In this document: piece after piece, positions 55,089 through 59,104 of the stretch
How positions within the stretch are numbered: the first letter of the stretch is position 1
Layout: each line of letters opens with the position of its first letter
Assembly (NCBI RefSeq): GCF_032051675.1
Contig: NZ_CP116968.1
Span: 620,001-684,000 of the forward strand
Reading direction: 5' to 3'
Length of the DNA: 64,000 nucleotides
From: Candidatus Nitrospira neomarina
GTDB taxonomy: Bacteria > Nitrospirota > Nitrospiria > Nitrospirales > UBA8639
The notes under the pieces: generated by a model
The model's database searches: none
What the model saw: the letters and a program-made list of their open reading frames with translations, nothing else
What the model was told of the DNA's origin: nothing
Translations under genes and position numbers: made by a program

Positions 55089-56107
55089 GGAAGCTTCGCG
55101 TCATGGCCCTTATGCATCAGGATCTCGTGCCCCCCGATGATGTGGAGCATGCCGATTTGGCTGAGGTTGAATGGAAAACCGAATTTGATGTGGTCTCCAC
55201 TTTACGGGATCTTGGCCATGAGGTTATGGCTGTCGGTGTCAGAGATGATTTAAGCGTGATTGATAACCTGGTAACGGATTGGAAGCCGCACATTGCGTTC
55301 AATCTGCTGGAAGAATTTAATGGCAATCCGGAGTTCGATCAAAATGTCGTGTCCTATTTGGAGCTCCTGGGAGTTCCCTATACCGGGTGTAATCCCAAGG
55401 GGCTCGTGCTCACTCGGGATAAAGGCTGGTCAAAAAAGATTATGGCCTACCATGGCATCCGATGCCCGGAGTTTGTGGTCTATCCACTGGGGCGAGGGAT
55501 TAAGTGGGCAGAAGAATTTCCCTTTCCGGTCATTGTCAAATCCATTAGTGAAGAAGCGTCCCTCGGCATTTCTCAAGCATCTATCGTCCATGACGAAGAC
55601 AAACTCAAAGAACGTGTTGAATTTGTGCATCAGAGTGTGGGCACGAGCGTCATCGTCGAGCGGTACATTGAAGGACGGGAACTCTATGTGGGTGTGTTAG
55701 GTAATCGACGATTACAAGCCCTGCCGGTTTGGGAGTTGCACTTAAAAAATCTTCCTCCTGATGCTCTGCCGATTGCCACGGCCCGGGTGAAATGGAGTAC
55801 GAAATATCAAAAAAAATACGGGATTCAATCGGGTGAAGTTGAAGGGTTACCTCCTAAGCTGGTGCGACATATTCAACAAACGGCCAAACGGGTCTTTCAT
55901 ATTTTGGGATTAAACGGCTATGCCCGCATGGACTTTCGGTTAGATCCCAAGGAACACCTGTATATATTGGAAGCCAATCCCAATGCCCAACTGGCATATG
56001 GCGAAGATCTCGCCGAGTCGGCTGAACGAGCCGGTATTTCCTATGAAGCGCTGATTCAACGAATTCTGAATATCGGCTTGAGCTGGAAGCCTGAAAGCCA
56101 GCGATAA
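55085..56107 (+). CDS. D-Ala-D-Ala-ligase-type ATP-grasp protein
   Basis: This 340-residue ATP-grasp ligase resembles D-alanine-D-alanine ligase in arrangement: FNLLEEFNG near residue 78, PFPVIVKSISEEASLGIS near 148, VERYIEGRELYVGVLG near 190, and LEANPNAQLAYG near 305 with metal-binding E and N residues. The overlap with the metallopeptidase suggests that an amide-forming and an amide-cleaving enzyme act together. It is not the cell's obvious Ddl, because no cell-wall gene is near. Confidence 0.8.
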   Translation: MRKLRVMALMHQDLVPPDDVEHADLAEVEWKTEFDVVSTLRDLGHEVMAVGVRDDLSVIDNLVTDWKPHIAFNLLEEFNGNPEFDQNVVSYLELLGVPYTGCNPKGLVLTRDKGWSKKIMAYHGIRCPEFVVYPLGRGIKWAEEFPFPVIVKSISEEASLGISQASIVHDEDKLKERVEFVHQSVGTSVIVERYIEGRELYVGVLGNRRLQALPVWELHLKNLPPDALPIATARVKWSTKYQKKYGIQSGEVEGLPPKLVRHIQQTAKRVFHILGLNGYARMDFRLDPKEHLYILEANPNAQLAYGEDLAESAERAGISYEALIQRILNIGLSWKPESQR

Positions 56108-56304
56108 CGGGGATTCTGAAAAACCTGCCAGGAGCGAAGTCGAAGGGCTGTCGGTAGGACGTTGTGCCCATTGTCTTTTGCTCTTAGATGTGGGCTGCAG
56201 AATGATTTCCTTGGGTCTGAGTTTTATTTCACAGAAAAGCGGAACTTTCTAACATTATTGTAAAATTTCAAGAGTTGATTCGTGTATTTGAGCGCAGAGC
56301 AGGG

Positions 56305-58830
56305 TCATGAGTTCTTTAATCCTGCTTGCCAAGTCGCAAGGGCCAATAATGGAAAGTAGTGCGAGTACAAATGGTATTTCAGATAGAAAACGTTAGGGAA
56401 TCCGGTTCCTGTCATGAGTTCCTCGTCCCACCCTCCTTGCTGGTTCTGATGAGTGAGCAGCCAGTCGATTCCACGATGAACGGGTTTTGAGGTGCGATCG
56501 CCAGCCGCTTCAAGTGCAAGTAAGGCCCAGGCTGTTTGTGAAGGTGTGCTTGGGGCTGGAACAAATTCCTGCTTTTCATAGCTAGCACAGCTTTCCCCCC
56601 ATCCGCCATCCTGGTTTTGGATTGACCGCACCCAGGTGGCAGCACGCTGGATTGCGGCGTTTGCAGTCGGGGAGCCACTTGCGCGAAGGCCACGCACGGC
56701 CAGGAATGTGCCATAGGTATAATTCACCCCCCAGCGTCCATCCCAACTCCCATTAGGTTGTTGATGGCCCAATAGAAATTGGACAGCACGCGCGATTGCC
56801 GGGTGTTGGTATGTATAATCACGCCGACAGAGTGCCTCCAATACCCGCCCGGTTATATCAGGGCAGCTGGGATCAAGCATGGCATTGTGGTCTGCAAATG
56901 GGACCTTATTCAGTAAGGCCCAATTATTATCGACATCAAAGGCAGCCCAACCCCCGTCTGAGGATTGCATCCCTAATAACCAGTTGATGGCACGACCTTC
57001 GGCGCGGGTCTGCCGGTCGGGATCAGAGGCCTTGGCATGCTGGAGGGCCAACAAGACCATGGCGGTGTCGTCGATATCCGGGTAGAGTTCATTCGCAAAT
57101 TGGAAAGGCCATCCTCCAGGCTGCAAATCCGGTCGCTTGACCGACCAGTCTCCTTTTCGGCGAATCTCTTTGCTTAATAACCAATCGGCTGCCCGCTGCA
57201 TGGCTTGCGGTTCACCAACACCGAGTTCTCCTAATGCAAACATTGAGATAGCCGTATCCCATACCGGGGACAAGCTTGGCTGAAACTGCAGAGCATCTTC
57301 TTTCTCAAGAATGAGCCCTTCAAGCTGGCCAAGTGTGTCAATGAAGTCCGGGTGGTCCCGCTCATAACCCAGAGCATCCATTGCCATGAGGGCATACATC
57401 ATTCCGGGAAAAATCGCTCCCAATCCATCCGTGAACCGCATGTGATCGAGCATCCACTTCTCCGCTTCGCGTATTGCTTTGGCGCGAACATCCTTAAAGC
57501 CCCGCTTTTCCCAGAGTTTCAATATCTTGTCCACCTGATGGAACAGGAGAGAAAAGGGATCTTTTCTTGGGAGCCTCAGTTTTCGATTGGGCACCATGAG
57601 TTCGTCAACGGTCCAATTTCCGGGCACTTGGTGTTGTACTCCCGACGCCTGAAGAATAGAGAGGGGGACGACGATGGCCCGACTCCACGATGAAATTTCA
57701 TACAAGACATTTCCCGGGATAAGGACCAGTTCAGGTGGAACACTCGGTGTGTACTTTCTTGGGAAGAGACCAAACATGCTCAGGTTATTCTTTGTGTAGC
57801 TATTGGTGGCTTGAAGACCTCCGAGGGCAAGGATGCGTTCACGCGCAAGCTGCATAAGTGGTTGATCGGGATCATAGCCCCCAACTCGAAGCGCCACATA
57901 TGCGCGGGTCGTGGCGTTTACTTCGGCCGGTCCTTCCGTATAAATGTTCCATCCACCATCTGAAAGTTGCCGGTCAAGGATGGTGCGGATGGCTTCCTTG
58001 ACTTTGGTCTGAATTCTTGGCTTCCACACACCGTTCTCTGGTGGATAGAGCCAGAGTAAAAGCAATACGTAGTCGGATTCCAATGTTGTGTCGGCGGTCA
58101 AATCGCCCTGCCAAAACCCTCGCGGATTTTGTTTCGCCAGTAGTGCACGCGCAGAGGTTTGGGTGGGTTGGTAGGCTTGGCGTTCGAGTTCCTCCACATG
58201 TGACTTAAAGGAAGCCAATTCCGCGAAGGCATCATTAGGCGGTGTGGGTATGGTGGTGGCGGACGTGTCTCTCATAGGTTCTCCTGATTGTGTGTGAGAT
58301 TGGATCTCCAAAACAAATGTGGCTCGTTGCTCACGCGTGGGAGGCGCTAATCCTAGGGCCTCGCTGAACCAGAGCCCTTCGACAGCCAGCCGCCCTAAAA
58401 GGGAACGAGTCGGATCAATGGTGCTGGCCAGAAAAATGCTCTGCCAATTTTGGTACCGCTCTCGAATGGGCTCGAGTAGATGTGGGTTGATGGAAAAAGC
58501 TGCCATGAGAATGGAGGCAATTTCTTCTCCTCGAAGGGACCGATTTTGGACGGGATTGTCGATAATCTCATGGCTAAAAGCCATGCCGGGATGCTCCTCA
58601 TGAATGGAGCTAGTGAGAAATTCTCCAACCTGTTTGCGATCCAAATCCTGTATGAGTAACTCTATGAGCCCCGCAAGTAACTGTTCTTTTCCCTCAAAAT
58701 GATAGAGTAAGCCACCTTTACTGATTCCGGCTTCTCGAGCGACATGCTCGAGTGTCAACGCACTGACCCCGTTTCGTCCCAACAGGTCTATGGCGGTCTC
58801 AAGGATCAAAAAGCGGGTCGAAGTTAACAT
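56305..58830 (-). CDS. shc: TetR-type regulator in one frame with squalene-hopene cyclase
   Basis: The single 841-codon frame contains a TetR-type helix-turn-helix (residues about 8-50) and ligand domain to about 185. A full squalene-hopene cyclase follows from M186 (656 residues, the usual family size). The cyclase has the acid motif DIDDT at 585-589 and QW-type repeats such as QLSDGGW and QSSDGGW. It makes hopene for hopanoid membranes. A cyclase-specific AGGAG with ATG lies at 58275, and a one-base shift would give an ATGA overlap of two genes. So it may be a true fusion, two genes read from a shared frame, or an indel. TetR probably controls the unit. Confidence 0.85.
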   Translation of the reverse strand: MLTSTRFLILETAIDLLGRNGVSALTLEHVAREAGISKGGLLYHFEGKEQLLAGLIELLIQDLDRKQVGEFLTSSIHEEHPGMAFSHEIIDNPVQNRSLRGEEIASILMAAFSINPHLLEPIRERYQNWQSIFLASTIDPTRSLLGRLAVEGLWFSEALGLAPPTREQRATFVLEIQSHTQSGEPMRDTSATTIPTPPNDAFAELASFKSHVEELERQAYQPTQTSARALLAKQNPRGFWQGDLTADTTLESDYVLLLLWLYPPENGVWKPRIQTKVKEAIRTILDRQLSDGGWNIYTEGPAEVNATTRAYVALRVGGYDPDQPLMQLARERILALGGLQATNSYTKNNLSMFGLFPRKYTPSVPPELVLIPGNVLYEISSWSRAIVVPLSILQASGVQHQVPGNWTVDELMVPNRKLRLPRKDPFSLLFHQVDKILKLWEKRGFKDVRAKAIREAEKWMLDHMRFTDGLGAIFPGMMYALMAMDALGYERDHPDFIDTLGQLEGLILEKEDALQFQPSLSPVWDTAISMFALGELGVGEPQAMQRAADWLLSKEIRRKGDWSVKRPDLQPGGWPFQFANELYPDIDDTAMVLLALQHAKASDPDRQTRAEGRAINWLLGMQSSDGGWAAFDVDNNWALLNKVPFADHNAMLDPSCPDITGRVLEALCRRDYTYQHPAIARAVQFLLGHQQPNGSWDGRWGVNYTYGTFLAVRGLRASGSPTANAAIQRAATWVRSIQNQDGGWGESCASYEKQEFVPAPSTPSQTAWALLALEAAGDRTSKPVHRGIDWLLTHQNQQGGWDEELMTGTGFPNVFYLKYHLYSHYFPLLALATWQAGLKNS
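58275..58290 (-). promoter_or_regulatory. Internal ribosome site and start of the cyclase part
   Basis: AGGAG lies six bases before the ATG at 58275, inside the long TetR-cyclase frame. This means the 656-residue cyclase can be made separately from the regulator, whatever the status of the fusion. Confidence 0.65.
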
Positions 58831-58880
58831 AGATTGTTACTGTACCGTCTGGCTGGTTTAGTTTCAATCGAAAAATTTTG

Positions 58881-58892
58881 ATTGTAAACAAT
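58881..58892 (-). promoter_or_regulatory. Candidate TetR operator
   Basis: ATTGTAAACAAT has five-base inverted arms with a two-base spacer. It lies 50 bases upstream of the TetR start. TetR regulators often bind such palindromes in their own promoter; the match here is short and unverified. Confidence 0.35.
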
Positions 58893-59104
58893 TAGGTATG
58901 AAGAGAGATTGATCCGGGCTGGTTTAAAGTCGGGGCGGCAAAAAATTTATGAAAATGGCATTCACCATGCCAATCAGGCCTCTTTCTGAGGTCAATGTAG
59001 TAATAGGAAACTAGCCATGGTTTTTGTCCACAAAATAACTGCCTCGAATATCTGGGACTTTGTATCATTTGGCAGAAGCTCAGAGAAGGAAGCGGGGCGG
59101 GAGG

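Follow-up and report, generated by a model that had tools for sequence, protein, structure and literature searches.

Based on our findings we propose that, in Candidatus Nitrospira neomarina and related nitrite oxidisers, a TetR_C_28-type regulator and an accessory squalene-hopene cyclase are joined in one real two-domain protein, that this fusion would repress its own promoter, and that in most species a free cyclase is additionally produced from a separate start within the same mRNA. We assign a probability of about 0.68 to this explanation as a whole. The gene lies in the window, i.e. the complete stretch of 64,000 nucleotides that was analysed, and its translation is a single frame of 841 codons without internal stop on the minus strand (positions 56305-58830, stop codon included), which is kept in 16 genomes.

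Both parts of the frame are recognized well above the respective thresholds. Residues 1-185 (58276-58830, minus strand) harbour the Pfam domains TetR_N (residues 9-53; 50.6 bits, cut-off 24) and TetR_C_28, the C-terminal ligand/dimer domain (residues 102-173; 65.1 bits, cut-off 26.4). The cyclase part, residues 220-835 (56326-58173, minus strand), consists of SQHop_cyclase_N (225-511) and SQHop_cyclase_C (520-835) and reaches 607 bits with the NCBIfam equivalog for squalene--hopene cyclase, TIGR01507 (cut-off 431). Its catalytic DXDDTA motif, which reads YPDIDDTA, and its C-terminal aromatic stretch TGTGFPNVFYLKY both align with their counterparts in 1gsz, a squalene-hopene cyclase of solved structure. 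The fusion is predicted to be an active cyclase. The original prediction, a TetR part of about 185 residues running into a full-length cyclase within one frame, therefore holds. The structure models (AlphaFold, shallow alignment) are poor, with pLDDT values of 69/68 and pTM values of 0.55/0.64, i.e. too weak for conclusions on domain packing, and a fold search with the predicted structure matched numerous TetR structures, which superposed poorly. The best PDB sequence matches of the TetR part are the 2yvh/2zoz group, which we take to be CgmR.

The uninterrupted frame is present in 16 distinct genomes, 13 from the same genus and three from a second genus of the family. Contig ends cut some of the frames, and two of the genomes (G000 and G019) are closed. 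In the more distant carriers the identity to the window protein drops to about 69-77%. Among 236 genomes of Nitrospirales, close homologues of the TetR part were encountered in fused form only; the next best TetR proteins (about 30% identity) stand alone and adjoin an apparent RND pump in the regions read. Likewise, 396 genomes sampled across the phylum yielded no further TetR-cyclase fusion, and a search for a close unfused ancestor within Nitrospirota remained without a candidate in the sampled genomes.

The window genome, a single contig of 4.80 Mb, contains a second, canonical cyclase at C1:4040629, adjoining a phosphorylase-family gene, and in the tree the fused cyclases form a deep clade of their own, separate from the canonical Nitrospira cyclase. 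A third cyclase homologue with about 38-40% identity is additionally present in two genomes of the genus (G007:C70:19837-21633 and G010:C49:108038-109867). Compared with window positions 56106-59104, one genome (G009, locus L114) shows a clean empty site, the whole 3.0-kb block of gene and promoter being missing: the ligase gene found left of the fusion in the window is followed by 4 bases and then by the DsrE gene found on its right. As, moreover, the fusion block is located at other loci in the distant carriers, it has evidently been gained or lost as a unit, like a cassette.

Both halves of the protein are under purifying selection, and the linker is loose. Restricted to pairs with unsaturated dS, the pairwise dN/dS values are 0.02-0.11 for the HTH, 0.03-0.21 for the C-terminal part of TetR and 0.04-0.07 for the cyclase, with 0.06-0.66 just before and 0.24-1.09 just after the internal start. 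This start is contained in the variable linker (approximately residues 174-219; 58174-58311, minus strand), which is stop-free in every genome. When codons 174-185 were simulated under neutrality along the fourfold-site tree, 16 stop-free rows occurred in 0.3% of the runs (P = 0.003) and on average 7 of 16 rows contained a stop; the simulation assumes an unconstrained end of the TetR domain, and the surprise is overstated if this end is constrained. Since no stop codon lies between TetR and cyclase in any of the 16 genomes, TetR can be produced solely in fused form, and the constraint on its HTH indicates that this form works.

The internal start consists of a Shine-Dalgarno sequence, AGGAG (58281-58285, minus strand), five bases upstream of an in-frame ATG (codon 186; 58273-58275, minus strand), the probable start of a 656-residue free cyclase. 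The original prediction included a ribosome site and an ATG of the cyclase's own at 58275, and the arrangement is indeed kept beyond this species: ATG and AGGA are invariant in 13 of the 16 genomes, with G as fifth base in 12. The residues encoded there vary across these 13 genomes (S/P/Q/E, G, A/D/E/N), and at least 7 of the 8 columns of AGGAG plus ATG are invariant (permutation within codon position, P = 8e-5). Because ribosome site and ATG are kept, the internal ATG is probably used as second start in these 13 species, yielding the candidate free cyclase in addition to the fusion. In G007, G010 and G005 AGGAG-ATG is absent, with ACA/ACG in place of the ATG, and we read these three as a fusion-only state. 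Gain and loss of the internal start are not separated by the tree, whose root is uncertain owing to a long outgroup branch. The junction reads ATGA in 12 of the 13 genomes, in line with a scenario in which a small indel removed the TetR stop of two overlapping genes. The idea that the usual ATGA overlap is the ancestral state is plausible, as exactly this arrangement is present in Cupriavidus.

How much each start contributes may be viewed differently. The free cyclase could be the main product and the long fusion just a low-level autorepressor with its cyclase half as incidental cargo; a good ribosome site and conserved bases mark the internal start, a ribosome site is missing at the first ATG, and leaderless initiation is frequently the less efficient kind in bacteria. 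However, the fusion and a constrained cyclase are retained in G007, G010 and G005, which lack the internal ribosome site and ATG at this place, i.e. in these three species the fused enzyme must suffice. We consider a free cyclase as main product possible, although unlikely. Conversely, the internal AGGAG-ATG might be an unused relic of the cyclase start that existed before the fusion, as it is missing in one group without visible harm and gain and loss are indistinguishable in the tree. Yet its bases are fixed across 13 genomes even where the encoded residues change, more than a relic would show, and we regard disuse of the site as unlikely.

A protease might also cut the translated fusion within the loose linker, resulting in two ordinary proteins. 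This would agree with the variability and the low predicted confidence of the linker, but the linker alignment shows no conserved cleavage motif and the internal start would be redundant, rendering such processing very improbable. Finally, a local indel or sequencing error might mask two separate genes, one of the two alternatives in the original prediction, the other one being a genuine fusion. The ATGA at the junction and the ATGA-overlapping pair in Cupriavidus do show how close both states are. The relatives, however, decide for the genuine fusion: rather than having two separate genes, 16 separately assembled genomes with identities down to 69%, the two closed ones (G000 and G019) and 14 others, keep the same open frame, by which an error is ruled out for practical purposes. 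We regard it as likely that the fusion is made and functional and that it is accompanied by a separately initiated cyclase in most species.

The region upstream of the first ATG suggests how the gene is controlled. An operator-like imperfect palindrome, ACTAAACCAGCC/AGACGGTACAGT (58839-58862, minus strand), overlaps a -10-like hexamer, TACAGT (58839-58844, minus strand), which precedes the first ATG by 8 nt in a leaderless arrangement, and extends to a -35-like hexamer, TTGAAA (58862-58867, minus strand), the spacer being 17 nt. A site of this type, ACTATACCGKCT/AGACGGTATAGT, is found directly before the first ATG in all 16 genomes, flanked by the -35 (TTGAAA-like) and -10 (TAYAGT-like) elements, i.e. 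in the promoter spacer. The palindrome scores 9-11 of 12 in the six members outside the main clade, 10 of 12 in G018 and 7-8 of 12 in the remaining carriers, the window species being weak with 7 of 12; for random 24-mers at least 10 palindrome matches have a probability of 2e-5. The -10 element ends 6-8 nt before the first ATG in 13 of the 16 genomes, and a ribosome site before this ATG is lacking in nearly all carriers, G018 having TAAGG. G017, G019 and G004 contain extra or duplicated promoter/operator bases between the first -10 element and the ATG. Altogether, the promoter layout points to a leaderless mRNA that may be self-repressed.

With a stricter search pattern the palindrome occurs once per genome in the eight carriers tested, including the window genome, and it is absent from the non-carrier G008. 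A regulon beyond the own promoter was considered and rejected: a looser pattern gave 18 matches as compared to 22 in the control, and the stricter one recovered the own promoters only. The single palindromic extra match of the looser pattern is situated inside a coding frame resembling an NAD-dependent DNA ligase. In Pseudomonadota, similar ATACCRTC half-sites precede TetR_C_28 genes that are accompanied by shc or SMR pumps, and the palindrome hence agrees with the kind of operator used by this TetR group. The fusion gene thus probably controls its own promoter, and the suggestion that a hopanoid enzyme is tied to its own repressor gains support from the palindrome. We assume that the TetR head represses; TetR proteins can also activate.

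Taking these features together, the fused repressor would bind the palindrome between the -35 and -10 elements of its own promoter and silence its own leaderless mRNA. A ligand typical of those sensed by this TetR group, most likely lipophilic cations or membrane-active compounds, may then release the repressor, which would result in more cyclase and finally in a membrane stiffened by hopanoids. In 13 of the 16 species the internal ribosome site on the same mRNA would also yield free cyclase, i.e. the output would be a mix of regulator-enzyme and enzyme alone. Repression, leaderless translation, the ligand class, the two products and the cyclase activity are all deduced from sequence, and the ligand class is argued by analogy, since the trees do not place the Nitrospira TetR and cyclase as sisters of the shc-associated genes of Pseudomonadota.

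Unfused TetR/shc neighbours were found by a protein search of plasmid records. The TetR-shc bicistron of Cupriavidus metallidurans CH34 has the same gene order as the fusion and the same promoter layout (TTGAAA-17-TATCTT, 8 nt to the ATG, site in the spacer); in contrast to the fusion, a stop codon is present and the TetR end and the shc start share one ATGA, an overlap of 4 bases, resulting in separate proteins. In Cupriavidus sp. EM10 (L104:4543-6521) the shc frame is broken, with a 438-residue frame from the ATG and the rest in another frame, i.e. it is a pseudogene or contains a sequencing error. On pCMU01, a conjugative plasmid of Methylorubrum extorquens CM4, SMR efflux pump, TetR_C_28 and shc genes adjoin (L105:3405-6481), TetR and shc being 105 bases apart, and this trio suggests a combined membrane-drug defence unit. 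In Burkholderia strains related to B. cenocepacia a TetR_C_28 gene and shc are divergent. In B. cenocepacia itself the divergently oriented genes BCAS0167 (shc) and BCAS0168 (TetR) are both induced by chlorpromazine, and loss of shc raises chlorhexidine sensitivity (PMC3155924). This pair resembles the fusion in that a TetR_C_28 regulator, as read in the related strains, adjoins shc, with a ATACCATCC-type site between both genes, but it differs in being two divergent genes, which are not the nearest relatives in the tree.

The TetR proteins checked at these Pseudomonadota loci all belong to TetR_C_28, and genes of this type adjoin SMR pumps and, in Cupriavidus, Burkholderia and Methylorubrum, shc. 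Stand-alone CgmR/QacR-like repressors share their Pfam domains with the fusion and a related palindrome occurs in SMR loci; these proteins differ from the fusion in that they regulate efflux pumps. Descent from a Pseudomonadota TetR-shc pair is supported by neither the TetR nor the cyclase tree, both having long branches, and the pairing could be ancient or could have originated repeatedly. The Pseudomonadota pairs thus illustrate how such a system works rather than prove membership, and the fusion seems to represent a known regulator-target pairing in a new architecture.

Proteins that combine a catalytic and a DNA-binding domain in one chain and regulate their own pathway, like the TetR-cyclase fusion would, are exemplified by PutA, BirA and NadR, in which the state of the enzyme is known to set DNA binding; to our knowledge none of them contains a TetR head or a terpene cyclase. 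Internal starts give rise to long and short products in Tn5 Inh and McrBS, the short one being devoid of the N-terminal DNA-binding part, and the difference is that the short form of the TetR-cyclase fusion would be the enzyme. One may speculate about a membrane-seated feedback switch, in which the cyclase half holds or releases its own TetR head depending on the membrane state or the substrate, and in which free cyclase pairs with fused monomers, keeps two TetR heads apart and thereby acts as an anti-repressor tuning hopanoid synthesis. We deem this extension rather improbable.

The control of the synthesis of hopanoids, membrane lipids that resemble cholesterol, is little known, and geology makes wide use of hopanoids as biomarkers. 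In marine nitrite oxidisers a conserved protein unites the regulator with the key enzyme, a candidate DNA site is defined, and the likely inducer class can be borrowed from the Burkholderia pair, which makes hopanoid control directly testable in vitro. The literature searched, which leaves many journals outside, yielded no earlier description of a TetR-terpene cyclase fusion. Within the partial text of PMC10579370, on 'Ca. Nitrospira neomarina' and 'Ca. N. allomarina', shc is mentioned and the fusion is not.

A separate fusion, for which the literature searched contained no match, was observed elsewhere. A frame of 1146 residues (L118:663-4103, G033:C16) combines a squalene epoxidase-type FAD monooxygenase (PF08491, PF01494) with an oxidosqualene cyclase-like domain that contains VSDCTAE; it scores 737 bits with TIGR03463, below the cut-off of 851. 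Another frame of the epoxidase-cyclase kind, with 1211 residues, is found at L119 (G023:C22), and these frames may unite the two initial steps of sterol synthesis in a single Nitrospirota protein.
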